Positions 8,315-60,686 of a DNA stretch of 64,000 bases are shown piece by piece. The position numbers and the translations under genes were made by a program. Position 1 is the first letter of the stretch; each line of letters starts with the position of its first letter. Source of the stretch: Amycolatopsis lexingtonensis (GTDB taxonomy: Bacteria > Actinomycetota > Actinomycetes > Mycobacteriales > Pseudonocardiaceae). The notes beneath the pieces were generated by a model. That model was not told the origin of the DNA. It did not search any database and saw nothing but the letters and a program-made list of their open reading frames with translations. The stretch lies in contig NZ_JADBEG010000001.1 in assembly GCF_014873755.1 (NCBI RefSeq), positions 808,501-872,500 of the forward strand, in the 5' to 3' direction.

Positions 8315-9234
8315 CGCGCGAAGCGGTCCAAGGCCGCCAGTTTCCAGGCGCGCTTGGTGTCGCTCGCGCGGTGCCCGGACCGGTCGTCGACGAGCAGTTC
8401 GGCGCCCGGCCAGGCCCGCGCGAGCTCCCACGCGGTCGTCACCGGGCAGCTGAGGTCGAGCCGGCCGTGGATCAGTACCCCGGGGATCCCGGCGAGCTTT
8501 CCCGCGTCGCGGATCACTGCGCCTTCCTCGAGCCAGCCGGCGTTCGCGTAGTAGTGCGTGGTGAGCCGGACGAACGCGAGCGCGGCGGCGTCGAGCGGTC
8601 CACTGTGGACTTCGGCGCCCGGCTCGAGGGACAGCACCGTTTCCTCCCAGTCGATCCACGCGAGGGCGGCGCGCTCCCGTTCGCCGGGGTCGGCCATCAG
8701 CCGCGCGTAACCGCGTACGACGTCGTCGTCCCCGACGCCGTCGCGGAAGCGCTGCCACGCCTCGGGGAAGAACCGGCCGGCGCCGCGGTAGAGCCAGTCG
8801 ATCTCCGAGCGCCGCGTGGTGCTGATCGCGCTGAGGACGATCTCCGACACCCGGTGCGGGAAGCGTTCGGCGTACACCAGCGCGAGCGTCGTGCCCCACG
8901 AACCGCCGGTCAGCAGCCAGCGTTCGACACCCAGGTGCTCCCTCAGCCGTTCGAGGTCGGCGACGAGGTGCTCGGTGGTGTTGTGCCGCAGGCTCGTGGC
9001 CGGGTCGCTCGCGTGCGGCAGGCTCCGGCCGCACCCGCGCTGGTCGACCAGCACGACGCGGTAGCGGGCCGGGTCGAACGTCCGCCGCATCCCCGGCGTG
9101 CAGCCCTGGCCGGGCCCGCCGTGCAGCACCAGCGCTGGCTTGCCGGCCGGGTTCCCGCAGGTCTCCCAGTAGACGCGCTGCCCGTCGCCGACGTCGAGCA
9201 GTCCGTGGTCGTAGGGCTCGATTGGCGGGTACAC
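8311..9234 (-). CDS. pip: Proline iminopeptidase
   Basis: 307 residues, alpha/beta hydrolase family S33. It begins YPPIEPYDHGLLDVGDG, the usual N terminus of the family, so GTG 9234 is chosen over longer frames. HGGPGQG (about 38-44) is the oxyanion loop, GGSWGTT holds Ser112, GRLDLSCP the Asp and SGH the His. It releases N-terminal proline from peptides in the cytosol. It lies 49 bp downstream of the monooxygenase gene on the same strand. Confidence 0.93.
   Translation of the reverse strand: MYPPIEPYDHGLLDVGDGQRVYWETCGNPAGKPALVLHGGPGQGCTPGMRRTFDPARYRVVLVDQRGCGRSLPHASDPATSLRHNTTEHLVADLERLREHLGVERWLLTGGSWGTTLALVYAERFPHRVSEIVLSAISTTRRSEIDWLYRGAGRFFPEAWQRFRDGVGDDDVVRGYARLMADPGERERAALAWIDWEETVLSLEPGAEVHSGPLDAAALAFVRLTTHYYANAGWLEEGAVIRDAGKLAGIPGVLIHGRLDLSCPVTTAWELARAWPGAELLVDDRSGHRASDTKRAWKLAALDRFAR
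8598..8610. repeat. GTCCA-N3-TGGAC interrupted palindrome, perfect copy 1
   Basis: Spacer CTG; inside the proline iminopeptidase gene, read on the minus strand as GTC CAC AGT GGA C. One of five perfect copies in the window. Confidence 0.6.
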
Positions 9235-9283
9235 CGCCCCATTGTCGCGGGCGCGCCGGAGGTGCCCCGGCGCGCCCCCGGCG

Positions 9284-10801
9284 TCAGGCCGGCTCGCCGA
9301 ACCACTTCCGCAGCGCGGCGTCAAGCCCGGCGATCCCGCCGTCCTCGGCCGCCCAGGCGATGAACCCGTCCGGCCGGAGCAGCACCCCGGTGAGGACCGG
9401 CTCGCTGTCGCACTTCGCGGTCAGCACGGTGACGCGGTCGCCCCAGCCGGCCGCCGCCTGCCGCAGACCGGCGTCCTCGGCGAGGTCGAGCAGGAGGGCC
9501 TTGCCGTCCTGGAGGTGCTCGCCCAGCCGGGTTCCATCGGCGAAGGCGAAGTCCGGCGCGGCGCGGCCGGTGAGGTCGTGCTCGCCGTCGAGCGGGTACC
9601 GGTGCAGCACCCCGGAGAGCTTCTTGGCCAGGTAGGTCGCGCCGTCGTCGGTGCGCAGCAGATCGCCGACGACCTGGCGCAGCGCCTTCGTCCGGACGTC
9701 GCTGCGCATCAGCGCGACCTGCGCCCGCGTCCATTCGAGCACCCACTCGCCGATCGGGTGCCGTTCTGTCGTGTAGGTGTCGAGCAGGCCCTCGGGCGCC
9801 CAGCCGTGGACGGTCGCGGCGAGCTTCCAGCCGAGGTTGACCGCATCGCCGATGCCCAGGTTCAGCCCCTGCCCGCCGAAGGGGGAGTGGACGTGCGCGG
9901 CGTCGCCGGCCAGCAGGACGCGGCCGAGGCGGTAGGTGCTCGCCTGGCGCGCGTTGTCGGTGAAGCGCGTCGCGCTGTGCACCTTGAGCACCCGGACGTC
10001 GGCGCCGGACACCCGCCGGAAGCTGTCCTCGAGCTCCTGCGCGGTGACCGGGGCTTCGCGGTCCGCGGGCGGCCCGTCGAACTCGACGGTGAGCATCCGC
10101 CCGGGCGTCGGCCCGTGGACGTAGAGCCCGCCGGTGCCGTGCTGCCAGCCCCCGGGCAGCTTGTCGACCCCGCTGAGCTCGGCCATCGCCTGCCGCCCGG
10201 TGACGGCGGGGTCGGTCCCGGGGAACTCGAACCCGGCCAGCTTCCGGACCGGGCTGCGACCCCCGTCGCAGCCGACGAGCCAGCTCGCCCGGACGGTTTC
10301 GCCGTCGTTCAGCCGCACGTTGACGCCGTCGTCGCCGGCCTCGAACCCGGTCAGCTCGACGCCGCGCCGGATCTCGACCCCCAGTTCGAGAGCGCGCGCG
10401 GCGAGAATCGCCTCGACGGCCTGCTGCTGGATGACGACAACGCGCGACGCGGGCCCGACGTCCCGGAAGTCGGGATCTTCGAAGTCGACCCCGTTCGAGG
10501 CGACCATGATGCCCGCGAAGTGCCCCACGGGCATGGCCGGTTTCGGTCCGCCCCCACCCCGCGACTTGAGGAACTCCTCGATCCGCGCGGCGTTCTGCCG
10601 CACGTTCTCGTCCATGGCGGGCAGCAGCCCCCGCCGGTAGAAGGCTTCGGCCGTCGTCAGGTTCACCGACCCGGCCTTGATCGTCAGATCCGGCTCGGGC
10701 AGCCGTTCGACGACGAGCACGTCCACGCCCGCCAGCCGCAGTTCACAGGCCAGCATCAAGCCGACCGGTCCGCCCCCGGAGATCACCACATCCCTGTTCA
10801 T
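9284..10801 (-). CDS. FAD-dependent aromatic monooxygenase (PgaE/RdmE/Rox-like)
   Basis: 505 residues. GGGPVG at residues 9-14 binds the FAD ADP part, CDGGRSP at 178-184 is the DG motif, and GDAAHVHSPFGGQG from 299 the GD motif; the C-terminal 110 residues form the thioredoxin-like domain of class A polyketide hydroxylases. It would hydroxylate an aromatic substrate using NADPH and O2. This family includes antibiotic-modifying enzymes, and the divergent TetR gene suggests induction by a small aromatic compound. Confidence 0.92.
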   Translation of the reverse strand: MNRDVVISGGGPVGLMLACELRLAGVDVLVVERLPEPDLTIKAGSVNLTTAEAFYRRGLLPAMDENVRQNAARIEEFLKSRGGGGPKPAMPVGHFAGIMVASNGVDFEDPDFRDVGPASRVVVIQQQAVEAILAARALELGVEIRRGVELTGFEAGDDGVNVRLNDGETVRASWLVGCDGGRSPVRKLAGFEFPGTDPAVTGRQAMAELSGVDKLPGGWQHGTGGLYVHGPTPGRMLTVEFDGPPADREAPVTAQELEDSFRRVSGADVRVLKVHSATRFTDNARQASTYRLGRVLLAGDAAHVHSPFGGQGLNLGIGDAVNLGWKLAATVHGWAPEGLLDTYTTERHPIGEWVLEWTRAQVALMRSDVRTKALRQVVGDLLRTDDGATYLAKKLSGVLHRYPLDGEHDLTGRAAPDFAFADGTRLGEHLQDGKALLLDLAEDAGLRQAAAGWGDRVTVLTAKCDSEPVLTGVLLRPDGFIAWAAEDGGIAGLDAALRKWFGEPA

Positions 10802-10819
10802 GGCTCCGATGATGCCCCG

Positions 10820-10843: not shown

Positions 10844-10852
10844 TGCTGGGTC

Positions 10853-10858: not shown

Positions 10859-10866
10859 CTCGGCTC

Positions 10867-11548: not shown

Positions 11549-14500
11549 GTGTCCGTCGACAACACCGTCACCGGGACGGTCGGTGCGGTGGTGCAGGCGA
11601 ACACGATCCGGGGCGGCGTGCACTGGCACGTCGACGCGCCGATCGAACTCCCGAAACCGCGGCAGCTTCCCGCCTCGACACGCGATTTCGTCGGGCGCGC
11701 GGCCCAGCTGGACGAGCTGAACAATGTGCTCGTCGAAGACGATCGGCCGGGAACCGTCATCGTCTCCGCGATCGACGGTGCGGCCGGCATCGGCAAAACC
11801 ACCTTGGCCCTCACCTGGGCACACCAGGCGGCCGACCGCTTTCCGGACGGCCAGTTGTACGTCAACCTGCGCGGTTTCGAGCCCACCGCGGCGCCGATGC
11901 CGCCGGAAGAGGCGCTCCGGGGTTTCCTCACCGCGTTTCGCATTCCCGCGGACACCATTCCCGCGGATCTGCAGGCGTTGTCGGCGCTCTACCGCAGCCT
12001 GCTGGCCGGGCGGCGGCTCTTGGTCGTGCTGGACAACGCCCGGGACAGCGAACAGGTGAGACCCTTGTTGCCGGGCAGTGACTCGTGCGCGGTCATCGTC
12101 ACCAGCCGCAACCGGCTCACCGAACTGGTGGTGCGGGACAGCGCGCGGCTCGTCACCCTCGACATGCTCTCCCCGGACGATGCACGCGAGCTCCTCGCGC
12201 GGCAGCTCGGCGACGGGCGGGTGGCCGCCGAACCGGAGGCGGTCACCTCCCTGGTCCGGTCCTGCGCCGGATTGCCGCTGGCGCTGACCATCGCCGCCGC
12301 GCGCGGCGCCGCGGACCCGCGGTTCCCGCTGACCGTCCTCGCCGACGAACTGCAGGACGAGCAGAGCAGGCTCGACAGCCTGGAGACCGGAGACCCGCGA
12401 ACCGATCTCGAATCGGTGTTCTCGTGGTCGTACCGGTCCCTGCCGCCGCCGGCGGCCGGGTTGTTCCGCTGCCTGGGTGTCCATGCGGGAGCCGACCTCG
12501 GTCTCGAAGCGATCCGGACCCTGACGGACGTGTCGGCCGTGCAGGCGAGGGCGCTGGTTTCGAAGCTGGTGCGGGCGAACCTCGCGGAGCAATACCTGCC
12601 GGGCCGGTACCGGATGCACGACCTGCTGCGCCTCTACGCCAGGCGTCTGGCTGTCCCGGATGATTCCGCTGCCTTGGCACGGATGTACGCGTGGTATCGC
12701 GACCGCGTGGTCGCCGCGGTTTCGTGGCTCCACCCGGGGTTGGCGGGCGATCGCTGTTTCCCCACCTGCAGCGAAGCCGTCTCCTGGCTCGAAACGGAGT
12801 GCGGCAACCTGGTTGCGATCATCCTGGACGAGCGACATTCCGAATTCGCGGTCGAACTGGCTTGTCTGCTCGTCCCTTTCTTTCACGAGCGTCGCAACTT
12901 CGACGACTGGTCCCGGACCTTGGTCGCGGCTTTACGCAAGGCCGAAGTTGACCGGAAGGGCATGGTCGGCGTCCATGTGAGCTTCCTGGAAGCTGTGTCG
13001 CACACGCATATCAACCTCGGGGACGAGCGACTTGGGGCAGTGTCGGCCGACGACGTGGAGGCCCTCGTGTGGGTCGCGAGGACACACCTCGCGTCAGCGC
13101 GCGGTAGTCAGGCGAAGGAAGCCGCGACAACGGCTTTGATCCGGGGACGGGAGAGGGACGATCTGCGCGCTGAAGGCTGGGCCCTGACGGTACTCGCCGA
13201 CGTATGCACCTATCAGCTGCTGTTCGACGAGACGGCCGATGCCCTCGAACAGGCGTTGGCGATCTGGCGGCGGCTCTCGGATCGCTGGTTCGAAGCTGAG
13301 GCGCTGATGCGGAGGGCCAAGGCTGACCGCAAGTGCAGCCAGATCACCCACGCACTCGAATGTCTCGATCGTGCGTATTCGATCTATGATTCCTTCGGCG
13401 ACTTGGCTGGTAAGGCACAGGCCACCTGCCTTCGTGGCAGCATCGTGGGTCAGTTCGGCGATGCGAGGCAGGCTTACGAATGTCAGGTGCGTGCGCACCG
13501 CTTCGCGGTCGACGCGAAAGATCTCCGTTTGGAAGTTCAGGTTCTCGAAGAACTGTGCCTTGCGGCGCGGCGTGGTGGGAAGATCGCGGCGTTCCAGGAA
13601 CACCACGACCGGTGGGCGGCGGTCGCCGACGCGCTCGGAGACCCCGAAGGTCCGGTGATCGCGTCGACGGAACTCGGTGAGGTGTACTCCAGGCTCGGCG
13701 ACCACGCGCGCGCGATTTCCTTGCTGTGCGAACAACGTCAGCGAGCCTGCGGTCTTCGCGTCGAAGTCGAAGGACGGACGGTCGGCGCTCTCGGGCGCGC
13801 CTACGGTCGACAGGGTCGCTTTGCCGAGGCACTTCGCTGCTTTTCGGAAATTGAAGAGCTGTTCGCGGAACACAGTGAACTCCTCGAGGTCGCACTGCAG
13901 GGGCCCATGGACGTCTACTGGCAAGCCGGCCGCCTCGTCGACGCCATCGTTTGCGCAAGGCGTCGTATTGTGCTGAGCCAGGGCAGGAGTGATCCCGGGC
14001 GCGAATGCTGGGCCTGGGACGACTTGGGTCTCACTCTTGCTGATTGCGGACGATATCAGGAGGCGATCGCGGTGCACACCCGTGCGCTGGATCTCAGGTC
14101 GGCGATGGGCGTGGATTCCTATCGACGAGGCTGGGGATTCGTCCACATCGCATGGGTACACTTCGACGCGGGACGATTCGATGATGCTCTGTTGAACTTC
14201 GGCGAAGCACTCTCGGTCCGCCAAAATACGGGAAACCGATTCGGCGTCCACCAGATATTAGGGATGATCGCCGAGGTTCACATCGCGCGGCTCGAATTCG
14301 ACGCCGCACGGCCTCTTGTCGAACAGGTCATGCGATTACCATCGGTGGTGACCGAGCCTGCAGTAGAGGCTTTGCGGGGATTGCTTCGAAGCTATTCCGC
14401 CAGCTACGGGTTCGAGGAGTTCGAGGCTTGCTATCGGCGTGTCCTGCCGGTGGCGCGGTTCCTCGGAGACTCGTATGTGGAATTTGTGATCCGACGACTC

Positions 14501-17643: not shown

Positions 17644-18020
17644 CAGGTCTCCCAGGTTGTGCCGTCCGGCCGGGTGCCGCGCAGGCCGGGCAGTGCGAAG
17701 TCCGCCAGTGCGGCGGTGGTAACTGTCCGGTGTGGACTCCAGGACGTCGAGAGCCGCAGCCGCCGCGCCATGCCGGCCCAGCCCGCCGGGGTCGCGCTGA
17801 CGACCCAGATGTCCGGGTCCGGGGCGGCGAAGCGACGGGCTTGGCGCAGCCACGACGCCGCCGTTTCCGGCCAGGTCACCGTCGCCAGCACCAGGCCGCC
17901 CCACGCCGCGGCGATCCGCTCGCCGTCGGCGCGGGAGACGGGGTCGGCCGCGGTGCCGAGCACGATGTGGCGGGCGGGGCCGATCAAGCGCACGAGCGCC
18001 GCCAGTTCGCGGGGTGTCAT
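17643..18020 (-). CDS. Hypothetical protein within the alkylation-repair run
   Basis: 125 residues, ATG 18020. An alpha/beta-like pattern is visible (IGPARHIVLGTAADPVSRAD, GGLVLATVTWP, DIWVVSATPAGWAG) but I recognise no family. It overlaps the upstream oxygenase stop (ATGA) and the downstream Ogt start (TGATG), so it is co-translated with both. Its position between an oxidative nucleic-acid demethylase-like gene and an alkyltransferase suggests an accessory role in DNA damage repair. Confidence 0.75.
   Translation of the reverse strand: MTPRELAALVRLIGPARHIVLGTAADPVSRADGERIAAAWGGLVLATVTWPETAASWLRQARRFAAPDPDIWVVSATPAGWAGMARRLRLSTSWSPHRTVTTAALADFALPGLRGTRPDGTTWET
17725..17737. repeat. GTCCG-GTG-TGGAC, one-mismatch copy of the palindrome
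   Basis: One mismatch to GTCCA-N3-TGGAC; inside the small hypothetical gene. Confidence 0.4.
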
Positions 18021-18730
18021 GCCGCGTCGTGGAAGACCAGGCCGAGGGTGTGACGGCGGCCCGAGCGGACCGCCAAGACGCCGTGGCGGACCGTGGCCGC
18101 CGACCAGCCGCGGGCCGAGCGGACCGGACGGTCGCGGGTGGTGAACACCAGGCCGTGGCCCTGCGGGATGAGTGTCGCCGTGCCGCGGGACTGGGCTCGC
18201 GGGCGCTGCTCCACCAGGAGGAACTCCCCGCCGGTGTGGTCGGTGCCCGGCTCGTTCAGGTTGATCACCACCTGCAGCGGGAACACCTTGTCGCCGTACA
18301 GGTCCCGGTGCAGCGCGTTCCAGCCGCCCGTCTCGTAGCGCAGCAGGATCGGCGTCGGACGCCGCTGCCCAGCCGCGTGGCAGACCGCCAGCCACTCGTC
18401 CAATGTGGACGGCCACTCGGCTTCCCGGCCCAGCCGTGCGGACCAGTCCCGGGCGATCGGGAGCAGCCGCGGATAGAGCGCCTGCCGCAGCCGCTGGACC
18501 GGCTCCGGGAACGGCGCGGCGAAGTAGTGGTAGTCGCCGTTGTCCCCGAAGCGGTGACGGCGCAGGTTCACCGTCGCCCGGAAATGTGCCGGTTCGTCCC
18601 AGAGCGACACCAGTTCCGCGCACTCCGCCGGCGTGAGCAGCTGAGGCAGCAGCGCGCAGCCGTAGTCGTCGACCTCCGCCGCCACCGCGGCCCAGTCGGC
18701 TGAGGCGACGCGTTTCTCGAAAGTGCTCAT
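18017..18730 (-). CDS. 2OG-Fe(II) oxygenase of the nucleic-acid damage type (PF09859-like)
   Basis: 237 residues. The double-stranded beta-helix iron triad is visible as His141 and Asp143 (HRDLYG) and His216 (RHGV), with RRHTLGLVFHDA near the C terminus as the 2-oxoglutarate-binding Arg region. Length and the LPQLLTPAECAELVSLW start match the Oxygenase-NA family, predicted to remove methyl lesions oxidatively from DNA. Placement between two alkylguanine methyltransferase genes supports this. Substrate is inferred. Confidence 0.85.
   Translation of the reverse strand: MSTFEKRVASADWAAVAAEVDDYGCALLPQLLTPAECAELVSLWDEPAHFRATVNLRRHRFGDNGDYHYFAAPFPEPVQRLRQALYPRLLPIARDWSARLGREAEWPSTLDEWLAVCHAAGQRRPTPILLRYETGGWNALHRDLYGDKVFPLQVVINLNEPGTDHTGGEFLLVEQRPRAQSRGTATLIPQGHGLVFTTRDRPVRSARGWSAATVRHGVLAVRSGRRHTLGLVFHDAA
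18398..18410. repeat. GTCCA-N3-TGGAC interrupted palindrome, perfect copy 2
   Basis: Spacer ATG; inside the 2OG oxygenase gene, read as TCC ACA TTG GAC (S-T-L-D) with two rare codons. Confidence 0.6.
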
Positions 18731-22006: not shown

Positions 22007-23005
22007 ATGGACACCGCCGCACTCGCGCGGTCCTTCGCGAAGGACCTGATCGCGCACCGGAACAAGCTCGCCGGCAAGGCCGAGGACGCCGTCCGCGCCG
22101 AATACGCCCTGCACCAGGTGGCCACCGCGCTGGACGACCAGCACGACGCGTACCACAAGGAGAGCACCGCGGTCCTCGGCCACTGGCACGGCCACGGCGC
22201 CGACGGGTTCCGCCACACCAGCGCGAAACTGACGAAGGAACTGAAGATCACGGGCGCGGCCGGCGCCGCGGCGGAGAAGATCGTCGCGCACGTGGCGTCC
22301 ACAGTGGACAGTGGGCACACTGCCGTGCAGCGGCTGGTCGACGAATACACCGTCAAGGCGAAGCAGGTCCTGGACGCGGGCGTCGCCACCGGGACGCAGG
22401 CCGCGCTGATGCGGGCCGTCGGGCACGTCGCGGACCTGGCGCCGCACTACACGCGGCAGTCCGCGTCGACGCTGCGGCACGTCCACGCCGAACTCGAGGC
22501 CGCGGCGAAGAAGCTGAACGAGCTGCGGAAGGACCTCACCCACGACGGCGTGGGGGACAAGACGACGCACGCGAGCCATATTTCCGGGCGGGGCAAGGAA
22601 ATCGTGCACGCCGCGCGTAAGGAGCTCGGCACGCGCGAGAACCCGCCGGGCAGTAACCGCAACCCGTACGGGCCGACCGCCGCGTGGTGCTCGTCGTTCG
22701 CCACCGCGATGTGGCGCAAGGCCGGCGTGAAGATCCCGGTGCTGCCGTTCAGCGGCGACGTCTACCACTGGGGACAGGCCAACGGGCACGCGTACGGCAA
22801 GCACTCGCTGCACGAGGCGCGGCCGGGCGACGTGCTGATCTTCGGCACCGGGCCGCAGAACACGTCGACGAGCACGCACATCGGCATCGTCGAGAAGGTC
22901 GAGGGGAACAAGGTCACGATGATCGAGGGCAACTCCGGGGACGCCGTCCGCCGGAACACGCACACGCTCTCGGCGTCGACGTTCTACGGAGGGGTTCACC
23001 CGTGA
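22007..23005 (+). CDS. WXG-like protein with C-terminal CHAP amidase domain
   Basis: 332 residues. The N-terminal 190 residues are helical with a WHG turn (LGHWHGHGADGFR, Trp60) like WXG100/LXG export domains. The C-terminal 130 form a CHAP/NlpC-type hydrolase: Cys228 (AAWCSSFATAMW), His291 (THIGIVEK) and Asn309 (IEGNSG). It would cleave peptide cross-links. No signal peptide is present, so export by ESX is expected. Together with the preceding lysozyme-like protein it makes a glycan-plus-peptide cutting pair. Confidence 0.88.
   Translation: MDTAALARSFAKDLIAHRNKLAGKAEDAVRAEYALHQVATALDDQHDAYHKESTAVLGHWHGHGADGFRHTSAKLTKELKITGAAGAAAEKIVAHVASTVDSGHTAVQRLVDEYTVKAKQVLDAGVATGTQAALMRAVGHVADLAPHYTRQSASTLRHVHAELEAAAKKLNELRKDLTHDGVGDKTTHASHISGRGKEIVHAARKELGTRENPPGSNRNPYGPTAAWCSSFATAMWRKAGVKIPVLPFSGDVYHWGQANGHAYGKHSLHEARPGDVLIFGTGPQNTSTSTHIGIVEKVEGNKVTMIEGNSGDAVRRNTHTLSASTFYGGVHP
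22297..22309. repeat. GTCCA-N3-TGGAC interrupted palindrome, perfect copy 3
   Basis: Spacer CAG; inside the CHAP gene, read as TCC ACA GTG GAC (S-T-V-D) with rare codon ACA. Confidence 0.6.
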
Positions 23006-30968: not shown

Positions 30969-32360
30969 ATGACCACAACCGCCGACCGTGCCACCGTCGA
31001 CGCTTCGAGCCTCGCCCAGGCCGCCCGCAGCAACCTCTGGCTGCACTTCACCCGCCACTCCACCTACGACGAGACCGACGTCCCGGTGATCGTGCGCGGC
31101 GAAGGCCCGTACATCTGGGACGCCCGGGGCAAGCGCTACCTCGACGGGCTGGCCGGCCTGTTCGCGGTCCAGGTCGGCCACGGCCGCGAGGAGCTCGCCG
31201 AAGCCGCCGCGCGGCAGACGAAGCAGCTCGCGTACTTCCCGCTGTGGGGCCACGCCCACCCGGCGGCGATCGAGCTGGCCACCCGGCTGGCCGCGGCGTC
31301 CCCCGGCGACCTGAACCGCGTGTTCTTCACGGTGAGCGGCGGCGAATCGGTCGAAACGGCGTGGAAACTGGCGAAGCAGTACTTCAAGCTCGTCGGGAAA
31401 CCGGGCAAGCACAAGGTGATCAGCCGCGCGCTGGCCTACCACGGGACGTCGCAGGGCGCGCTGTCGATCACCGGCATCCCCGGCGCGAAGGCGGACTTCG
31501 AGCCGCTGGTGCCGAGCACCCTGCGCGTGCCCAACACGAACTTCTACCGCGCGCCCGAGCACGCCGACGACTACGAGGCCTACGGTCGCTGGGCGGCGGA
31601 CCAGATCGAGCAGGCGATCGAGTTCGAAGGCGCGGACACCGTCGCGGCGGTGTTCCTCGAGCCCGTGCAGAACACGGGTGGGTGTTTCGTGCCGCCGCCG
31701 GGGTACTTCGCGCGGGTGCGGGAGATCTGCGACAAGTACGACGTGCTGCTGGTGTCCGACGAGGTGATCTGCGCGTTCGGCCGGGTCGGGTACGACTTCG
31801 CGGCGAAGCGCTACGGGTACCAGCCGGACATCATCACGACCGCGAAGGGCCTGACGTCCGGGTACGCACCGCTGGGCGCGGTGCTGGCCTCGGAGCGGCT
31901 GATGGAACCGTTCACCCGCGGCGAGACGACTTTCATGCACGGCTCGACGTACGGCGGGCACCCGGTGTCCTGCGCGGTGGCGCTGGCGAACCTCGATTTG
32001 ATCGAGCGTGAGGGGTTGTACGAGCACGTGCTGACGCGCGAGTCGGCGTTTCGGTCCACTTTGGACAAGTTGACTGATTTGCCGATCGTGGGGGATGTTC
32101 GGGGGGCCGGGTTCTTTTACGGGATCGAGCTGGTGAAGGACAAGGCGACGAAGGAGACGTTCAGCGCGGCTGAGTCGGAGCGGGTGCTGCGCGGGTTCCT
32201 TTCGGAGGCGTTGTTCGAGGCCGGGTTGTACTGCCGGGCTGATGATCGGGCTGAGCCGGTGGTGCAGTTGTCGCCGCCGTTGATTTGTGATCAGGCGCAG
32301 TTCGATGAGATGGAGCAGATCCTGCGGGACACGCTGAGCCGGGCTTGGCAGTTGCTGTAG
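30969..32360 (+). CDS. Class III PLP aminotransferase (omega-amino acid type)
   Basis: 463 residues. PLP lysine Lys293 in TTAKGLTSGYAPLGAV, preceded by LLVSDEVICAFGRVG with the cofactor Asp; FTVSGGESVETAWKLAKQY near residue 120 is typical of the beta-alanine/putrescine-pyruvate group. It would move the terminal amine of an omega-amino acid or diamine to pyruvate. Codon use in the last third is less GC-biased than neighbours. Regulated with the permease by the Lrp protein (inferred). Confidence 0.93.
   Translation: MTTTADRATVDASSLAQAARSNLWLHFTRHSTYDETDVPVIVRGEGPYIWDARGKRYLDGLAGLFAVQVGHGREELAEAAARQTKQLAYFPLWGHAHPAAIELATRLAAASPGDLNRVFFTVSGGESVETAWKLAKQYFKLVGKPGKHKVISRALAYHGTSQGALSITGIPGAKADFEPLVPSTLRVPNTNFYRAPEHADDYEAYGRWAADQIEQAIEFEGADTVAAVFLEPVQNTGGCFVPPPGYFARVREICDKYDVLLVSDEVICAFGRVGYDFAAKRYGYQPDIITTAKGLTSGYAPLGAVLASERLMEPFTRGETTFMHGSTYGGHPVSCAVALANLDLIEREGLYEHVLTRESAFRSTLDKLTDLPIVGDVRGAGFFYGIELVKDKATKETFSAAESERVLRGFLSEALFEAGLYCRADDRAEPVVQLSPPLICDQAQFDEMEQILRDTLSRAWQLL
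32054..32066. repeat. GTCCA-N3-TGGAC interrupted palindrome, perfect copy 4
   Basis: Spacer CTT; inside the aminotransferase gene, read as TCC ACT TTG GAC (S-T-L-D) with two rare codons. Confidence 0.6.
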
Positions 32361-34931: not shown

Positions 34932-36068
34932 TTAGAAGCCGTCTAGGCCGATCGGGGTTCCGACGCCTGTCGGGGCGTCATAGCCCGGGCCCGCGACACA
35001 CAGGTAGTCGCCGCCGCACTTCTTCCCCGCGCCCGCCGGGTCGTTGTGGCCCGTCGTGATGTCCGTGAACCGGGACGCGTTCGCGTACAAGCCCGACGGC
35101 GCCGGAACGTGCCCCGACCGGCCGATCAGCCCCGCGATGAACGGCGCCGACGCGCTGGTGCCGTTCACCGGGAGCCAGCCGCCCGCGTCCGCGTAGTGGA
35201 TCGCGATCTCGTCCGCCGCGGCGGCGACGTCGGCCACCGTTCGCTTGCCGCAGTGGGTGTCCTTCTGCCACGACGGCTTCGCGATGTACGCCGAGCAGCC
35301 GCTGCCGCCGTACTGCCAAGCCGATTCCGTCCAGCCGCGGGCCGTCGACGGGTCGCGGGCCAGTGACGTCCCGCCGACCGCGATCGTCGTCGCCAGGACC
35401 GCCGGGTAGCTCGCCGCCGTGAAGCCCGCGTCACCCGAGGACGCCACCACCGCCACGCCCGGGTGCTGGTAGTGGCTCGCGAACGCCAGCGGCGCACCGC
35501 CTTCACGGGCGCCGTAGCTGTTCGACACCACCGAAGCGCCCAGGCGGACCGCCGTGTCCTCCGTCTCCGCCAAGTCGGCGAAGCCCGGCGAGTTCCCTTC
35601 GACGACCACCAGCCGGCACGACGGGCACGCCGCCGACACCATCGAGACGTCCAAAGTGGACTCCAACGCCCAGCCGAAGGACGCCTCGGGCAGCGGTGCG
35701 GAAAGCCCCTGCTGGTTGACCTTGCGGAAGCAGCCGTTGGCCGTCGTGCACGGCGGGAGGCCGTACTGCGCCCGGTACGCCGCGAGGTCGGCATCCAGGT
35801 TCGGGGCGTCGTAGGCGATCGAGATACCGACGACCGTTTCCGGGCCCGGAGTGGCCGGGAGACCGTACGCTGACGCCAGGTCGTCGGCACCCCAGCCGGC
35901 CGGCCCGTCGGCCAGGGCGCGGACCGCACCCGGGGTGTACGTGGTGAGGCAGCGCGCCACCCCGGGCTGCTCGGGACAAGCCGCGCGCGGTGCCGGAGCG
36001 GCGGTCGCGGCCGGAGCGAACGCGACGACCAGGACGGCGCTCAGCACGCCGATCAGTGATCTGTACAC
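34932..36068 (-). CDS. Secreted S53 (sedolisin/kumamolisin-type) serine-carboxyl peptidase
   Basis: 378 residues, GTG start. Signal peptide to about residue 24. The sedolisin catalytic set is in place: Glu136 and Asp140 (ALESTLD), oxyanion Asp213 (SSGDAG) and nucleophile Ser305 (NGTSASAP). A Ca-site-like DYLCVAGPGYDAPTG ends the chain. It lacks the large pro-domain that usually precedes S53 catalytic domains, having only about 45 residues. It starts 14 bp after the large secreted protein gene, which could provide the missing chaperone function. Confidence 0.9.
   Translation of the reverse strand: MYRSLIGVLSAVLVVAFAPAATAAPAPRAACPEQPGVARCLTTYTPGAVRALADGPAGWGADDLASAYGLPATPGPETVVGISIAYDAPNLDADLAAYRAQYGLPPCTTANGCFRKVNQQGLSAPLPEASFGWALESTLDVSMVSAACPSCRLVVVEGNSPGFADLAETEDTAVRLGASVVSNSYGAREGGAPLAFASHYQHPGVAVVASSGDAGFTAASYPAVLATTIAVGGTSLARDPSTARGWTESAWQYGGSGCSAYIAKPSWQKDTHCGKRTVADVAAAADEIAIHYADAGGWLPVNGTSASAPFIAGLIGRSGHVPAPSGLYANASRFTDITTGHNDPAGAGKKCGGDYLCVAGPGYDAPTGVGTPIGLDGF
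35649..35661. repeat. GTCCA-N3-TGGAC interrupted palindrome, perfect copy 5
   Basis: Spacer AAG; inside the S53 peptidase gene, where the minus strand reads TCC ACT TTG GAC, encoding the catalytic ESTLD segment. Confidence 0.6.
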
Positions 36069-36082
36069 AGTGGACTCCCCTG

Positions 36083-39181: not shown

Positions 39182-40777
39182 ATGTCCCAGAGCCCGTCGC
39201 TCAGCCGCCGCCAGTTGCTGCGCTACAGCACCTTCGCCGGGGCGGCCTTGGCGTTCCCCACCGTGCTCGCCGCGTGCGGCGGCCCGGCGTCCACCAACAA
39301 GACCGGTGCTTCGGCGGGCTCGCTGACCGCCGTCATCGGCTACGGCAACAACCAGACGTGGGACCCGCTGCAGACCGCGTCCGCGTTCTCGATGGCCGCG
39401 ATCCTGCACTGCTACGAGTCGCTTGTGGAGGGTGACCCGGTCACCCGCGCGCCGTTCCCGGGGCTGGCCAAGGCACTGCCCGGCGCCACCGGCACCAGCC
39501 TGAAGTTCGACCTGAGAGACGGCGCCCAGTGGCACGACGGGCAGCCGGTCACCGCCGACGACGTCGTCTTCACCTACGCGCGGGCGCTCGACGAGAAGGA
39601 GAACGTGCTGATCCACAGCTTCTTCTCCACCTGGCTGAAGGAAGTCCGCAAGACCGGCGACCGCTCGGTCGAGTTCGTGCTGAAGTTCCCGTTCCCGTAC
39701 GCCCTGCAGCGGATCCAGTGCTGCAAGATCATGCCGAAGCACGTCTTCGAGGGGAAGTGGGACGACGCCAAGGGCGGCAAGGTCGTCGGCTCCGGCCCGT
39801 ACCGGGTCGTCGAGCAGGCCCCGCTCAGCCACACCAGTTTCGAGAAGTTCGCCGCCTACAACGGTCCCCGGCCGGCCGCGTACGACAAGATGCTGTGGAA
39901 GTCTATTGTGGACGCGGCCCCGCGCGTCGCCGCGATCTCGGGCGCGAAGCCGGACGCGCAGATCGCCGAGAACATCCCGGCCGCCAACGCCGACCAGCTC
40001 CGCAAGGCCGGCCGCACGGTCGAGTTCGCCGACGGCGGCAACAACCTCTTCCTGCTCTTCAACACCGCGCACGCGCCGTTCGACAAGAACCTCGTCCGGC
40101 AGGCGCTGCACTACGCGATAGACAAGAAGAAGATGGTCGAGATCGGGCTGAAGGGCGCCGGGACGCCGGCGACGTCGTTCATCAACCCGAAGCTCCCGTC
40201 TTCGCAACCGGCGGCGCACGACTTCGCGTACAACCCCGAGAAGGCGAAAGAGCTGCTGCGGCAGGCGGGCGTCAGCGACCTCGCGGTGACGCTGTCCACG
40301 ACGAACACTTCGCTGGTCGCCGACTGCGTCAAGGTGATCAAGGAGGGCTGGGACGCGATCGGCGTCCGGACCACTTTGGACTCCCAGGACACCAAGGCGC
40401 TGTTCTCCAAGCTCGACGCGGGCACCGACTTCCAGGTCGTCGCGACGACCAACAACCCGCTGCAGTTCGGCAACGACCCCGACCTGCTGATCCGCTACTA
40501 CTACGACGCCAAGTCGATCCTCACGGCCAAGTACGCCCGCTTCACCGGTCCCGACGCGCAATCCCTGCAAGCGCTGCAGGACCAGGCCGCGGCGGAACCC
40601 GACGAAGGCAAGCGGACCGCGCTCACCAAGCAGCTCCTCGACCGGATCTCCGAGCAGGCCGTGCTCTACCCGGTCGTGTTCACCCAGCTCGGCACGGCGT
40701 GGGACCCGAAGGCGATCAGCGGCGTGCGCGCCCAGGGCTACCCGGGCATCTACCTCAACCAGGCCAAGCCGGTCTAG
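39182..40777 (+). CDS. ABC importer solute-binding lipoprotein (SBP_bac_5)
   Basis: 531 residues. Twin-arginine leader SRRQLLRYSTFAGAA ending in lipobox LAAC, so probably Tat-exported and lipid-anchored. The SBP family 5 fold follows (LRDGAQWHDGQPVTADDVVF, YALQRIQCCKIMPKHVF, NLVRQALHYAIDKKKMVEIG). This family binds oligopeptides but also glycosides and oligosaccharides. Position at the head of a sialidase operon suggests a glycan ligand. Contains two one-mismatch copies of the GTCCA palindrome (39901, 40369). Confidence 0.94.
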   Translation: MSQSPSLSRRQLLRYSTFAGAALAFPTVLAACGGPASTNKTGASAGSLTAVIGYGNNQTWDPLQTASAFSMAAILHCYESLVEGDPVTRAPFPGLAKALPGATGTSLKFDLRDGAQWHDGQPVTADDVVFTYARALDEKENVLIHSFFSTWLKEVRKTGDRSVEFVLKFPFPYALQRIQCCKIMPKHVFEGKWDDAKGGKVVGSGPYRVVEQAPLSHTSFEKFAAYNGPRPAAYDKMLWKSIVDAAPRVAAISGAKPDAQIAENIPAANADQLRKAGRTVEFADGGNNLFLLFNTAHAPFDKNLVRQALHYAIDKKKMVEIGLKGAGTPATSFINPKLPSSQPAAHDFAYNPEKAKELLRQAGVSDLAVTLSTTNTSLVADCVKVIKEGWDAIGVRTTLDSQDTKALFSKLDAGTDFQVVATTNNPLQFGNDPDLLIRYYYDAKSILTAKYARFTGPDAQSLQALQDQAAAEPDEGKRTALTKQLLDRISEQAVLYPVVFTQLGTAWDPKAISGVRAQGYPGIYLNQAKPV

Positions 40778-47471: not shown

Positions 47472-49295
47472 ATGAGAACACTGGGGAGCTGGGCCGCTTT
47501 GCTGGCCCTGGCGGGCTCGCTGCTCGCGGTGAGCCCGGCGCAGGCCGAGCCGATGTTCGAGCAGCAGGTGCTGTTCAAGGCGGCGCAGGACCCGGGGTAC
47601 AGCTGCTTCCGGATCCCGGCGATCGTGCGGTCCGCGCACGGCACGCTGCTCGCGTTCGCCGAGGGCCGCATCGACAACTGCGGCGACACCGGCGACATCG
47701 ACCTCGTGCTCAAGCGGTCCACCGACGGCGGCAAGACGTGGTCGCCGCTGCAGGTGGTCAACCGCGGCGGCGGGGACACCCACGGCAACCCGGTGCCCAT
47801 TGTGGACAGCCGCACCGGCCGGATCGTGCTGATCACGACGTACAACAAGGGACGTGACGACGACAAGGGCTGCGATGTGCCCTGCCCGCGCACCCCGCAT
47901 TCCCAGTACAGCGACGACGACGGCCTGACCTGGTCGACGCCCGTCGACATCAGCGCGCAGGCGAAGCTGCCGGACTGGGACTCGTGGTACGCGTCCGGTC
48001 CGGTGCACGGGATCCAGCTGACGCGTGGCCGCCACGCGGGCCGGCTCGTGTTCGGCGTCAACGCGGAAACCAGCGACGGCACGCATTCGATCGAGAACCA
48101 CGCGGGGCTCGTCTACAGCGACGACGGCGGGCGCAGCTGGCACGTCGGCGCGGTGAACAGCTACCCCCACCCGGTCGGCGGTACGTACACCCAGAAGCCG
48201 TCCGAGGTCACCGTCGCCGAGCTGGCCGACGGGTCGATCTACGCCGGCGGCCGCGAGCAGGGCGGCACCGATATCGGCAACCGCGACTACGCCATCAGCC
48301 GCGACGGTGGTGAGACGTTCTCCAGGTCCTTCACCACCATCCCCGACCTGGTGACGCCGATGGTGCAGGGCGCGGTGCTGCGGGTCGGCAACCGCCTGCT
48401 GTTCTCGTCGCCGTCGGACACCGACCGGCGGCGGTGGATGATGCTCCGGTCGTCGTACGACGGCGGCCGGACGTGGGAGAACGCCGAGCAGGGCACGCGG
48501 ATCACCACGGACTGGTCGGGCTACTCGGACCTGGTGCAGATCGCCGGTGCGCGGATCGGGCTCCTGTACGAAGGCGGCGCGGTCGACGCCCGGGACGAGA
48601 TCCGCTTCGCGCGGTTCGACGAGTCGTACCTGGGGTGGCACAACTCGGCGGGACCGTCCACACCGGACGTTTCCGGCCACGCCGACGCGCGGGTGCTCGG
48701 CGGTGCTTCCCTTGCTGCGGGGCGCTTCGGTGGCGCCGTTTCCCTGGACGGCGTCGACGACTACGTCCGTGTTCCCTACGACCCGGCGCAACCCCCGGGC
48801 GACGGCGACCTGACGTGGACGGGCTGGTTCCGCTACGGCGCCTCGAAGGGCAACCAGGTGCTGTTCTGGCTCGGCGGGATGGGCGGCACCGCCCCGCAGC
48901 TGTGGCTGCGCGGCGAACCGGCGAACCACCGGCTGCTCGCGATGATGACCACGGCCGCCGGAAGCGCATCGATCACGACCGCGCAGGCGTACGACGACCA
49001 GGCGTGGCACCACATCGCGCTGGAGCGCACCGGCGGGAAGCTGCTGCTGTGGGTCGACGGTGTGCAGGTCGCTTCCGGTGCCGCCGTGACGGGTTCGGTG
49101 AGCCAGACGGTGTCGTTCCAGCTGCAGCTCGGCCAGCGGCTGGACAACCAGTTCCGCTGGAACGGCTCGTTCGACGAGGTCGGGTTCTACCGCCGGGCGT
49201 TGACGGCCGCCGAGCTGGACGCGATCCGGCTTGGGAACGCACCCGTTCCGGCGGGCCAGGTACTGCGGCTGCCGTTCGACCGGCTCCGCGGCTGA
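47472..49295 (+). CDS. Secreted GH33 sialidase with C-terminal LamG-type domain
   Basis: 607 residues. Signal peptide to about 25; CFRIPAIV is the FRIP arginine motif; five Asp-boxes (STDGGKTW, SDDDGLTW, SDDGGRSW, SRDGGETF, SYDGGRTW) make the six-bladed propeller to about 385. A LamG/concanavalin-like domain (about 395-600: GGAVSLDGVDDYVRVPYD; AWHHIALERTGGKLLLWVDG) probably binds glycan. ATG 47472 has AAGGG six bases upstream; ATG 47466 overlaps the GH42 stop. It releases terminal sialic acid outside the cell, feeding the importer. Confidence 0.94.
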   Translation: MRTLGSWAALLALAGSLLAVSPAQAEPMFEQQVLFKAAQDPGYSCFRIPAIVRSAHGTLLAFAEGRIDNCGDTGDIDLVLKRSTDGGKTWSPLQVVNRGGGDTHGNPVPIVDSRTGRIVLITTYNKGRDDDKGCDVPCPRTPHSQYSDDDGLTWSTPVDISAQAKLPDWDSWYASGPVHGIQLTRGRHAGRLVFGVNAETSDGTHSIENHAGLVYSDDGGRSWHVGAVNSYPHPVGGTYTQKPSEVTVAELADGSIYAGGREQGGTDIGNRDYAISRDGGETFSRSFTTIPDLVTPMVQGAVLRVGNRLLFSSPSDTDRRRWMMLRSSYDGGRTWENAEQGTRITTDWSGYSDLVQIAGARIGLLYEGGAVDARDEIRFARFDESYLGWHNSAGPSTPDVSGHADARVLGGASLAAGRFGGAVSLDGVDDYVRVPYDPAQPPGDGDLTWTGWFRYGASKGNQVLFWLGGMGGTAPQLWLRGEPANHRLLAMMTTAAGSASITTAQAYDDQAWHHIALERTGGKLLLWVDGVQVASGAAVTGSVSQTVSFQLQLGQRLDNQFRWNGSFDEVGFYRRALTAAELDAIRLGNAPVPAGQVLRLPFDRLRG

Positions 49296-51482: not shown

Positions 51483-52409
51483 TCACCGCAGGGGATGCGC
51501 GCGGAAGAACCGCCAGATGACCGGCGTCGCGTCGATCACCGTCGGCGTGGCCGAGTCGTTGTTCGGCTGCGTGCTCGGCCAGACGTGCCCGGCGCCTTCG
51601 ACGCGGTAGTGCTCGAGCGCGCAGCCGAGCCACTTCTGCGCCACGACCCCGGGCACCGGCGTCCACGACACCGGCTCCGGGCGGCAACCGTCCCTTGTGG
51701 ACCAAGCCGCCAGCCAGTCCGGGATGGCAGGCAGGCCCTTGGCCGGGTTGCCGGCGTACGGGATCGTGGTGTCGGCGGTGCCGTGGAAGTCCAGCACCGG
51801 CACCGGGCGGCTCGGGTCGCACGCGCCGCCCTGCGGGTAGAACGCGCCCGACACCGGGGCGAACGCCGCGATCCGGCCCGCCAGGCGGCACGCCAGCACC
51901 CCGACGAACCCGCCGCCGTTGGACTTGCCCGCCGCGTAGATGCGCCCGGCGTCGACGCACAGCGTGCGCTGCAGCGAGTTCAGCAGGTCGCTGGTGAACA
52001 GGACGTCGTCGGCGGCGGCCGAGTAGGGCGCCCCGGTCCAAGCCGACTCGCCGTCCGTGCCGATCAGGCCCTGGGGGTACACCGAGATCGCGTCCAGCGC
52101 CGAGAAACCGGACAGCTCCTCCTGGTACTGGGACGTCCGCTTGTGCCCGTGGAACGACAGCACGAGCGGGTACGGCCGGTGGGCGTCGTAGCGGGCGGGC
52201 AGGTGGACGGTGTACTCGCGGTCCAGGCCGCCCGAGACGACGTGCCGGGTCGTCGTCGCCCCGGGCGGGATGCCGGGGGTGCGCCCGCAGCCGGTGGTGC
52301 GGACCGGGTGGTCGGCGACGCCCGCCGCGGCGGTGGGGGCGGCGAAGGCGGTGGTCAGGGCACAGGCCGCGGCGAACGCGGCGGCCCACCGGGGAAGGCG
52401 TCCGGGCAC
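51483..52409 (-). CDS. Secreted PHB-depolymerase-like / CE1 esterase
   Basis: 308 residues, GTG start behind AAGGAGG. Signal peptide to about residue 29. Alpha/beta hydrolase with oxyanion FHGHK, nucleophile Ser163 (GKSNGGG), HGTADTTIPYAGN with the Asp, and GAGHVWP with the His. Members cleave polyhydroxyalkanoate oligomers or feruloyl/acetyl esters on plant xylan. Substrate cannot be decided here; nearby carbohydrate genes slightly favour the second. Confidence 0.9.
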   Translation of the reverse strand: MPGRLPRWAAAFAAACALTTAFAAPTAAAGVADHPVRTTGCGRTPGIPPGATTTRHVVSGGLDREYTVHLPARYDAHRPYPLVLSFHGHKRTSQYQEELSGFSALDAISVYPQGLIGTDGESAWTGAPYSAAADDVLFTSDLLNSLQRTLCVDAGRIYAAGKSNGGGFVGVLACRLAGRIAAFAPVSGAFYPQGGACDPSRPVPVLDFHGTADTTIPYAGNPAKGLPAIPDWLAAWSTRDGCRPEPVSWTPVPGVVAQKWLGCALEHYRVEGAGHVWPSTQPNNDSATPTVIDATPVIWRFFRAHPLR

Positions 52410-57238: not shown

Positions 57239-58198
57239 TCAGCAGCTCGCCTGGTTCAGCAGCGGCGTGAGCACGGATTCGAGCCACACCGTGTGCGTCT
57301 TGACGTACTGGTCGAGGTTCAGCAGGTCGGTCACCTGCTGGCCCAGCGACGTCTCCAGGTGCGCGCTCTTGATGTGCGCGACGATCGGCGCGAGCGTGTC
57401 GGTGAGTACCTTCCCGCCCGATCCGTCGAACGCCGGGGCGAGCACGGTTTCCAGCCACACCGTGTGCGTCTTGATGTACTGGTCCAGGCTCAGGATGTCC
57501 TGCACCTGCTGCCCGGGAGAGGTCTCCAGGTGCGCGCTCTTGACGTGGTCGAGGATCGGCTGCAGGACCGCCTTCGGCACGCAGGAGCCGCCGGCCGGGG
57601 TGGACGGCATCGGCATCGAGTGGCTCGGCGCCGAGGTCGGGGCGGACGTCGGGGCCGAGGTCGGCGGGGCACTGGTCGGTGCCGAGCCGGTCACGGTGAC
57701 GGTCGCCTTCATGTCCGGGTGGATCGCGCAGTAGTAGGAGTAGGTCCCGGCTTGGGTGAAGGTGTGGCTGAAGGTCTGCCCCGTCTGCAGCGTCGGGGAC
57801 GTGAACTTCTCCGGGCCGTCGGTGACCACGATGTTGTGCGGGGCGGTGTCGTGGTTGGTCCACGTCACCGTGTCGCCGACGGCGATGGTCAGGCTCGCCG
57901 GGGAGAACTTGTACCCCATCGCTTCGACGGATTTCGCCGAGCCCGTGGCGGCGGCCGGCGCGGCCTGTTCCTGGGCGAGGCCCTGGTACAGCGGCACGGC
58001 GAGCGGGCTCTGCTTCGCCAGCGCCGCGAGGTCGACGTCCGCGGCTTGCGCCGGGGCCGCCTGCTCACTCGAGCCGCCGCGGAGCGTGGCGATGCTGAAC
58101 AACGCGACCGCCAGGGCGAGGATCGCCACGGCGACCGGCCAGTGCCGTCGGCGCCGCACCTCCTCCGGTTGCCCGGGGGAGACGTGGGGGTTGTCCAT
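57239..58198 (-). CDS. Membrane-anchored cupredoxin with duplicated His-containing C-terminal repeat
   Basis: 319 residues. One N-terminal helix (20-38), then a plastocyanin-like domain (88-170) with His121, Cys157, His160, Met163 as copper ligands. A Ser/Pro linker leads to two 41-residue repeats (214-254 and 271-312), each with HxKSAHLETS, GQQV, LDQY and KTHTVWLE; three His per repeat are conserved. The repeats look helical. I do not recognise them; a second metal site is plausible. Central gene of the copper cluster. Confidence 0.9.
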   Translation of the reverse strand: MDNPHVSPGQPEEVRRRRHWPVAVAILALAVALFSIATLRGGSSEQAAPAQAADVDLAALAKQSPLAVPLYQGLAQEQAAPAAATGSAKSVEAMGYKFSPASLTIAVGDTVTWTNHDTAPHNIVVTDGPEKFTSPTLQTGQTFSHTFTQAGTYSYYCAIHPDMKATVTVTGSAPTSAPPTSAPTSAPTSAPSHSMPMPSTPAGGSCVPKAVLQPILDHVKSAHLETSPGQQVQDILSLDQYIKTHTVWLETVLAPAFDGSGGKVLTDTLAPIVAHIKSAHLETSLGQQVTDLLNLDQYVKTHTVWLESVLTPLLNQASC

Positions 58199-58225
58199 TG
58201 AGGACTCCTTTCGCAGGGTGTGCGA

Positions 58226-59748: not shown

Positions 59749-60149
59749 GTTCGGTCCTCCCAAGAGCAGGAATCCGTTCGCCCGGAATGGAATGCGCCGG
59801 AATGCCGGAGCGGCCGGGGAACACGGGAATGTGGAGAGCAGAAAACCAGCAGCCCGGTTTCGAGGAGTGTTCTTCACGTGAAGCGCAGGTTAAGTTGGCC
59901 GGCCATTCGGCGGCCCGGCTCGGTGAGATGCTGCGCCGAACGCTCCGGAAACTGGACCAAACGGGTGACCGGGGTGGCTAACCCGTGGAGCAACCGTCCG
60001 TTTCGCCCAGTTCGCGGGAGCGGGTCCGCCGAGGCGGTGAGAATTGCTTAACGCAGTCGTTTCACGGTTCACCGTTGTGCGGCCGGACGAGATCACTACC
60101 GTTCCGTGACGCCCGCCTGTTCCGCGAATCCCGAGAACGCGAGGAAATC
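59749..60149. other. 401-bp divergent control region of the copper cluster
   Basis: No gene. It is less GC-rich than its surroundings, with A/T-containing stretches around 59820-59900 and 60050-60120. It must hold the promoters for the minus-strand cupredoxin/CopD operon and for copC. I found no clear CsoR-type palindrome. Confidence 0.6.
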
Positions 60150-60686
60150 ATGTCTTTCCGGTGGTCTTTTCCCGTCCGCGTCGCCGCCGCGCTGGCCGCC
60201 GCCGGCAGCGCCGTCCTGCTGTGCGCGCCCGCCGCGGCCGCGCACAGCGTGCTGATCTCCAGTTCGCCGGCGAAGGACGCGGCGGTCACCGCGTCGCCGG
60301 CCGAAGTGGTGCTCGAGTTCAACGAGCCGGTGGAGAACCGGTTCACCGAGCTCGCCGTGCTCGGGCCCGACGGCGCGTCGCACTGGGAGGGCGGCCCGGT
60401 GTCCGTTGTGGACGGTCGGGTTTCCGCGCCGCTGCGCCCGCTCGGCCCGGCCGGGGGCTACACGATCCGCTACCGCGTCACCTCCGGGGACGGCCACCCG
60501 GTGTCCGGCGCGATCCCGTTCCGGCTGACGGTGGCGGGGCCGGCGACGGCGGCGGCGGCCGCCACCATGGCGGCGAGCCCGGCCGTCGACACTTCCGTGC
60601 CCTGGTGGCCCTGGGTCACCGGCGGCGCCGTCCTGCTCGGCACCGGGTTCGCCGTGGCCCGGCGCGTGGCGCGCGCGAACACCTGA
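60150..60686 (+). CDS. copC: CopC-type periplasmic copper-binding protein with C-terminal anchor
   Basis: 178 residues from MSFRWSF, GAGG upstream. After the signal peptide (1-31) the mature chain begins HSVLISSSPAKDA, giving the N-terminal His of the CopC Cu(II) site; DGHPVSGAIPF supplies the other His. EVVLEFNEPVE and a C-terminal helix (WPWVTGGAVLLGTGFAVA) complete it. Binds copper outside the membrane and hands it to CopD. Contains a one-mismatch GTCCA palindrome at 60401. Confidence 0.94.
   Translation: MSFRWSFPVRVAAALAAAGSAVLLCAPAAAAHSVLISSSPAKDAAVTASPAEVVLEFNEPVENRFTELAVLGPDGASHWEGGPVSVVDGRVSAPLRPLGPAGGYTIRYRVTSGDGHPVSGAIPFRLTVAGPATAAAAATMAASPAVDTSVPWWPWVTGGAVLLGTGFAVARRVARANT

Follow-up and report, generated by a model that had tools for sequence, protein, structure and literature searches.

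Why does one short interrupted palindrome recur inside the genes of Amycolatopsis lexingtonensis, and what reads it? In the window (the whole stretch of 64,000 nucleotides that was analysed), the perfect motif GTCCANNNTGGAC occurs five times against 0.08 expected, and none of 100 shuffles reached five. Sites with at most one mismatch number 20 against 2.18 expected (shuffle maximum, 6), including 15 one-mismatch copies. The five perfect copies described in the earlier note (8598, 18398, 22297, 32054 and 35649) were all confirmed, and the eight one-mismatch copies that it named are all present among the 15. The perfect copies do lie inside genes (called by a purpose-made script) and on both strands, two on the plus and three on the minus strand. 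Perfect and one-mismatch sites include the following:

5916..5928, unstranded: one-mismatch site GTCCGAAGTGGAC
8598..8610, unstranded: perfect site GTCCACTGTGGAC in gene 8311-9234 (-); not kept in A. pretoriensis
17725..17737, unstranded: one-mismatch site GTCCGGTGTGGAC
18398..18410, unstranded: perfect GTCCANNNTGGAC site GTCCAATGTGGAC in gene 18017-18730 (-); kept in A. pretoriensis
22297..22309, unstranded: perfect site GTCCACAGTGGAC in gene 22007-23005 (+); kept in A. pretoriensis and CA-128772
32054..32066, unstranded: perfect GTCCANNNTGGAC site GTCCACTTTGGAC in aminotransferase-like gene 30969-32360 (+); kept in 4/8 other aligned Amycolatopsis
35649..35661, unstranded: perfect GTCCANNNTGGAC site GTCCAAAGTGGAC in gene 34932-35960 (-); arms kept in A. 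pretoriensis and CA-128772
36063..36075, unstranded: one-mismatch site GTACACAGTGGAC
39901..39913, unstranded: one-mismatch site GTCTATTGTGGAC; full GTCCATCGTGGAC in A. pretoriensis
40369..40381, unstranded: one-mismatch site GACCACTTTGGAC
47795..47807, unstranded: one-mismatch site GCCCATTGTGGAC
51690..51702, unstranded: one-mismatch site GTCCCTTGTGGAC
58193..58205, unstranded: one-mismatch site GTCCATTGAGGAC
60401..60413, unstranded: one-mismatch site GTCCGTTGTGGAC

The dispersed palindromic motif is real across the genome, where GTCCANNNTGGAC was counted 471 times compared with 4 for the reversed control. A sharper form, GTCCACWGTGGAC, has one extra arm base per side and a W centre; it has 229 perfect genomic copies, and weaker forms are commoner. 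Perfect arms with a G/C centre were absent from a 1.2-Mb sample (0 versus 1.55 expected) and few elsewhere in the genome. Arm spacing is exact: a spacer of 3 gave 52 matches, compared with 0-10 for every other spacer from 0 to 15, in a sample that includes the window. The excess is independent of codon use and protein sequence. In 60 stretches of 20 kb across the genome (the 1.2-Mb sample; 20 repeats per null), 29 copies of GTCCACWGTGGAC were found, compared with 0.0 when codons were permuted within genes and 0.1 when synonymous codons were shuffled, and the one- and two-mismatch forms were likewise above these nulls.

Coding sites are usually read as NNG-TCC-ACW-GTG-GAC, and 21 of 27 Ser-Thr-Val-Asp tetrapeptides are encoded in this way (0.09 expected), which indicates that a DNA signal shapes protein sequence. 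The earlier note had proposed selection at the DNA level, to be judged by whether codon-aware shuffling reproduces the count; it did not (29 versus 0.0-0.1), and the proposal is strongly supported by these nulls and by the Ser-Thr-Val-Asp codon choice. Its statement that the motif forces rare codons held for four of the five perfect copies, with ACA, ACT and TTG, but at 8598 the reading frame differs (V-H-S-G). Conservation pointed the same way, with arm identity of 586/640 versus 2751/3584 for flank bases, in 64 non-independent orthologue pairs that represent few independent sites and in which protein constraint contributes too. Sites fell within genes in 39 of 47 cases, and since the intergenic share (8/47) is close to the noncoding share (12%), no regulon stands out. 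We found no common flanks around 35 compared sites and therefore rejected dispersal by copying; a REP/MITE-type repeat was also set aside, given the unshared flanks of these sites and the 39/47 within genes. Rfam gave no match inside the window, and the open-licence papers in which the 13-mers occur were, judging by their titles, all on other subjects.

The 85 mapped sites are spread across the chromosome, genic and intergenic alike. Their distances from oriC departed from uniformity when all were included (KS p = 0.0016), and fitted a uniform spread when sites in NRPS clusters were set aside (KS p = 0.33, n = 74), so there is no clear macrodomain. More than 4 Mb from oriC, 34 of the 85 sites were found versus 21.7 expected, 11 of the 34 coming from NRPS clusters. 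For reference to oriC, dnaA lies at C1:7.32 Mb. The origin falls within a site-free gap of 706 kb (P = 0.004, considering this gap on its own), and other parts of the chromosome have gaps of 565 and 553 kb. The mapping that the earlier note had called for thus led us to reject an origin or terminus pattern. Site clusters were also considered as a pointer to the reader protein, and this was rejected because the densest are NRPS genes.

A candidate reader is a PadR-family winged-helix protein of 166 aa, encoded outside the window (G000:C1:6077202-6077696), since the 13-mer matches the predicted operator in the padR promoter. The G000 protein itself carries the PadR domain (PF03551; 33.9 bits versus a cut-off of 27). 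In a profile search, PF10400 was absent from it and present in the PadRs of four genomes with few motif copies. The PadR fold was found in the structure model of a close homologue, P0005 (pLDDT 85.1, pTM 0.71), which matched Rv1176c (TM 0.75) and Rv0047c (TM 0.73); B. subtilis PadR with DNA gave the best E of the hits, 1e-7, but an rmsd of ∼18. In G000, padR lies just ahead of prfB, ftsE, ftsX and smpB, and it precedes prfB-ftsE-ftsX(-smpB) in 7 of 10 loci read. A search for PadR on plasmids gave no match. In open-licence literature no paper combined PadR, ftsE and prfB, and none of those listed concerned the motif or the locus.

Among 28 padR genes orthologous to that of Amycolatopsis, 25 have a promoter site of at least 10 bits, an operator by sequence match, compared with a background of 1.8e-4 per bp or ∼0.04 such sites per 220 bp; the three promoters with no site at this threshold belong to two Asanoa and G620. 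Many genomes of the window's family have two promoter sites 21-23 bp apart at near-constant positions. The G000 promoter has three, at -113, -66 and -44 from the start codon, an arrangement common only to close Amycolatopsis. Operators in the family depart from a perfect palindrome in their outer bases, and the outer two are the most variable, as in genomic one-mismatch sites (26/49). We also read 20 low-copy regions from 17 genomes, namely 13 of the 18 other matching genomes in a 395-genome survey (G452, G273, G140, G473 and G323 were left out) and four from a 397-genome survey. A perfect 13-mer was upstream of a padR in 4 of the 20, about 20-65 bp from script-called starts, and one region had two perfect sites 33 bp apart upstream of padR; in the other 16, padR was not seen beside the site.

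The array and the gene co-occur. Motif arrays are present in Amycolatopsis and some relatives, part of its order, with 0 to 640 copies within one family. Of the 66 genomes that have five copies or more among 397 surveyed, 65 contain PadR (E ≤ 1e-60). The exception, G072, has eight copies and an assembly that is 82% complete, in which PadR was not found. PadR is also present in 19 of 20 genomes of the window's family with 0-4 copies and in many f15-family genomes with 0-2, and therefore is not sufficient for an array; G651, G508 and Haloechinothrix even have good padR operators without one. Within the window's family, larger genomes carry more copies (Spearman 0.84, n = 79), also when its own genus is excluded (0.78, n = 65), both statistics ignoring descent. 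In zero-copy G071 (140 kb) and G651 (100 kb), searched for motif 'dialects', no iterated palindrome stood out, and the pooled Streptomyces loci were orthologous copies, not readable for this purpose.

As the 13-mer matches the control sites of a padR beside cell-division genes, PadR probably reads the whole chromosome. This assignment, made from sequence comparison, is well supported, and we consider it probable that GTCCACWGTGGAC is a PadR recognition site and that the chromosome carries an array of such predicted sites kept by weak selection. Of the several possible roles listed in the earlier note, a site for a dedicated DNA-binding protein is the best fit, and DnaA titration is not supported. 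The actinobacterial DnaA box has GTCCAC as its core, and TGTCCACA is somewhat enriched (45 versus 26.3 expected). However, low-affinity DnaA titration is highly improbable, because TTGTCCACA is not enriched (19 versus 15.3), motif sites lack the TT flank of the DnaA box and an exact head-to-head dyad is required. The half-sites GTCCACA (224 versus 172 expected) and GTCCACT (205 versus 124), each with 29 copies within full dyads, show a modest excess compared with the hundreds-fold excess of the full dyad. Moreover, the motif is missing from nearly all other actinobacteria drawn (0-2 copies in 395 genomes), although these have DnaA. Molecular drive, in which biased DNA uptake or repair spread the word with no binding role per site, would account for the range of array size within one family and, through decay of driven copies, for the one- and two-mismatch excess, but we regard it as very doubtful since it leaves the palindrome and the padR operator match unexplained. 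One site per 23 kb is also sparse for an uptake word.

A different protein, either a paralogue of PadR or a member of another family, could share this specificity and read the sites, with the padR promoter match reflecting shared operator ancestry. The orthologues without any array are consistent with this, as is the T-R-S-Q-x-Y-R-E-L helix, which an alignment showed to be common to other PadRs, but no other candidate came up, short of a genome-wide search, and the near-complete co-occurrence of PadR with arrays favours PadR and makes a different reader quite unlikely. A structural role for PadR is a real possibility, if on the unlikely side: it would bridge or mark the nucleoid at hundreds of sites, its proximity to ftsE and ftsX would provide the link to division, and titration would be a by-product. 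Sites all round the chromosome, genic and intergenic alike, agree with this, whereas the lack of a clear macrodomain does not.

Under the preferred reading, PadR as the reader of a weakly selected array, motif copies would have arisen in place by point mutation, mostly inside genes, and would be kept by weak DNA-level selection, which is nevertheless sufficient to bias the codons and amino acids used. PadR probably controls its own gene through the three promoter sites and would occupy the chromosomal sites in the cell. As to purpose, we prefer to see the array as a reservoir of PadR: with the protein retained on the chromosome, its free fraction, and hence padR output and perhaps prfB-ftsEX-smpB output, may track DNA amount; PadR may additionally organise the nucleoid. 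In its full form this proposal is tentative and rather unlikely: PadR would be a reader of chromosome content, titrated by intragenic sites that write Ser-Thr-Val-Asp into unrelated proteins, with the free fraction setting padR-prfB-ftsE-ftsX-smpB and tying DNA amount to release factor 2 and FtsEX. Along 10.7 Mb of chromosome, the choice of codons and amino acids is biased by a strongly over-represented DNA word, which is probably read by a conserved, unstudied regulator adjoining ftsEX. If this is correct, one more protein family would be added to the small set of proteins known to read sites chromosome-wide, and the link between DNA content and division in filamentous actinobacteria could be tested directly. 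Sister genera with PadR but without the array provide a natural experiment.

Known PadR members are local regulators. The protein resembles the family (PF03551; B. subtilis PadR, Vibrio AphA, Mycobacterium Rv1176c and Rv0047c) in domain profile, fold and palindromic sites in its own promoter, but differs in that the operator word is found at hundreds of places, most of them within genes. The matS/MatP, Noc and SlmA systems also pair short dispersed palindromes with one reader protein tied to division or segregation. In contrast to these, the array involves an unrelated protein family and many more sites; the 85 mapped sites lack the terminus confinement of matS and, unlike those of Noc and SlmA, are not scarce near the terminus (the excess beyond 4 Mb from oriC). 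HIP1 of cyanobacteria is an over-represented 8-bp palindrome whose abundance varies strongly between relatives and which is tied to DNA methyltransferases (PMC4390886). The present motif is similarly over-represented, largely in coding DNA and strongly variable among relatives, but is 13 bp long with a W centre, is far less dense and is tied to a PadR operator. Most E. coli PhoB sites are intragenic, and they were reported to be mostly not conserved and without detectable regulation (PMC10294691); most sites here are also inside genes, but unlike for PhoB the word is itself strongly over-represented.

The earlier note had described an interrupted palindrome of 13 nt (GTCCANNNTGGAC, the 13-mer) as over-represented in the window, and our counts bore this out: five perfect copies were present against 0.08 expected, and we counted 15 one-mismatch copies where at least eight had been claimed. 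The A. lexingtonensis genome (G000; one contig, C1, of 10.74 Mb, with the window at C1:808501-872500) held 471 copies and four of a backwards-read control pattern; for a sharper form with a W centre (GTCCACWGTGGAC), the totals were 229 and, for the reversed control, 1. A one-base change of spacer length abolished the excess, and no flanking consensus beyond the motif was found among 35 sites. Codon-aware nulls, a check proposed in the earlier note, were generated by codon permutation and synonymous shuffle on 60 segments of G000, each 20 kb long (1.2 Mb in total). Perfect sites numbered 29 (0.0 by permutation, 0.1 by shuffle), one-mismatch sites 49 (1.0, 3.7), two-mismatch sites 154 (20, 33) and three-mismatch sites 299 (250, 265). 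The excess thus drops stepwise with each added mismatch, as for a weakly selected binding site; in 26 of the 49 one-mismatch sites the mismatch fell on one of the two outer bases.

In this 1.2-Mb sample (88% coding), GTCCANNNTGGAC had 47 sites, 39 within genes and 8 intergenic, and 34/39 genic sites, counting both strands, read NNG-TCC-ACW-GTG-GAC. Ser-Thr-Val-Asp occurred 27 times and each of the 23 alternative residue orders 0–9 times; TCC-ACW-GTG-GAC encoded 21 of the 27, compared with 0.09 predicted from codon use. Therefore, it is the DNA word that gives rise to the tetrapeptide and not vice versa, and this codon choice and the nulls together demonstrate selection at the DNA level. Among the matches listed, the 13-mer was densest in long NRPS genes (G000:C1:2733488-2762275 and 2270815-2292558), where Ser-Thr-Val-Asp recurs. 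The window also has a 1347-aa reading frame (11549-15592, + strand), NTPase-like and repeat-like as judged by eye and absent from the script's gene calls.

All ten arm bases were retained in A. pretoriensis at 4/5 window sites. Nine Amycolatopsis genomes supplied 64 pairs, not all independent of one another; across these, identity was 92% in the arms and 77% in the flanks, with all ten arm bases retained in 42/64 pairs (36/44 where pair identity was ≥80%). Sites were lost or altered in more distant species, indicating site turnover. The earlier note had also proposed mapping relative to oriC and ter. In G000, dnaA lies at 7.32 Mb, coinciding with a GC-skew turn, and the opposite turn is near 2.0 Mb. 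Among the matches listed (100 of 101), 85 distinct sites selected by a flanking base gave a map neither terminus-only nor terminus-free: 34/85 lay >4 Mb from oriC (21.7 expected; KS P = 0.0016), with P = 0.33 once 11 NRPS-cluster sites were removed. The widest gap between these selected sites, 706 kb (G000:C1:7044428-7750110), contains dnaA/oriC, and sites are possibly depleted near the origin.

The NNN form was present in 59/59 same-genus genomes (106–608 copies each), and the W form never exceeded two copies in any other member of a phylum sample (396 genomes). In an order sample (397 genomes), 66 had at least five copies: 59/79 Pseudonocardiaceae (range 0 to 640) and seven from four other families (f5, f9, f12 and f14). 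Within Pseudonocardiaceae, larger genomes had more copies (Spearman 0.84, n = 79, ignoring kinship). Copy numbers in 28 named genomes were:

Amycolatopsis, eight genomes: 43–227 (minimum, A. thermalba)
Kutzneria buriramensis: 113
Lentzea xinjiangensis: 68
Phytohabitans flavus: 18
Actinophytocola MAGs, two: 5 and 14
Remaining fifteen, including Pseudonocardia eucalypti, Haloechinothrix and three Streptomyces: 0 or 1

Since in low-copy genomes the 13-mer could simply be a conventional operator, 20 regions around the site were read in 17 of these. A PadR-family gene lay just downstream in four (G372, G223, G284 and G330), its product carrying PF03551 and PF10400; none was seen beside the site in the other 16. 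Searching with these four PadRs gave one clear best match per array genome, in G000 at C1:6077202-6077696 (147.9 bits; runner-up 79.5). A structure model of a close homologue resembles PadR proteins. The G000 padR promoter has three predicted sites:

-113: GTCCACAGTGGAC
-66: AGCCACAATGGAC
-44: GACCACTGTGGAC

With a weight matrix built on genomic sites (threshold ≥10 bits), 25/28 padR orthologue promoters had a site (∼0.04 expected per promoter), the exceptions being two Asanoa and G620. The -66 and -44 sites are imperfect palindromes, as in the family's promoters, and may be weaker than genomic sites, which would suit a reservoir circuit. PadR (E ≤ 1e-60) was encoded in 65/66 genomes with at least five copies (exception, G072), yet also in 19/20 Pseudonocardiaceae with 0–4 copies and many f15 genomes; from this distribution, it looks necessary for the array of dispersed copies but insufficient.

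In G000, padR, prfB (TIGR00020), ftsE (TIGR02673), ftsX (NF038346) and smpB (TIGR00086) lie in a row on one strand. With gene names elsewhere assigned by eye, padR-prfB-ftsE-ftsX order was found in 7/10 loci of 20 kb, six with smpB; one further locus left padR's place unsettled and two had a different PadR. This second, high-scoring type, which was the best match in G063 (L210) and P. eucalypti (L211), does not lie beside prfB. The L210 promoter has TTCCACAGTGGAA-type sites, possibly a variant operator, and that of L211 has none.

We favour a reservoir role, in which PadR would sit on chromosomal 13-mers. These would act in bulk, because individual sites turn over and lie anywhere within genes, and free PadR and its operon would thereby track DNA content. 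The closest rival is a structural chromosome role of PadR. MatP, Noc and SlmA share neither protein family nor map with the proposed PadR array. As a reservoir, the array would work like other dispersed-site systems; the nearest published parallels found are HIP1 (PMC4390886) and intragenic PhoB sites (PMC10294691). No report of the 13-mer or padR locus was found in open-licence papers.

Other palindromes were seen in the 1.2-Mb sample. A ∼55-bp repeat family with twin TGAATGASTCATTCA cores (81 cores, 81/81 intergenic; e.g. L031:12409-12453), with similar copies dispersed in A. pretoriensis and A. vastitatis, is either REP/MITE-like or terminators. A second family has a TGCGTCNGACGCA centre and CCCAATGTGG arms (21/21 intergenic; e.g. 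L039:10171), a third has TGAACG-N3-CGTTCA cores (21/22 intergenic; e.g. L032:12247), and TTTCACGTGAAA dyads were intergenic in 9/9 cases.
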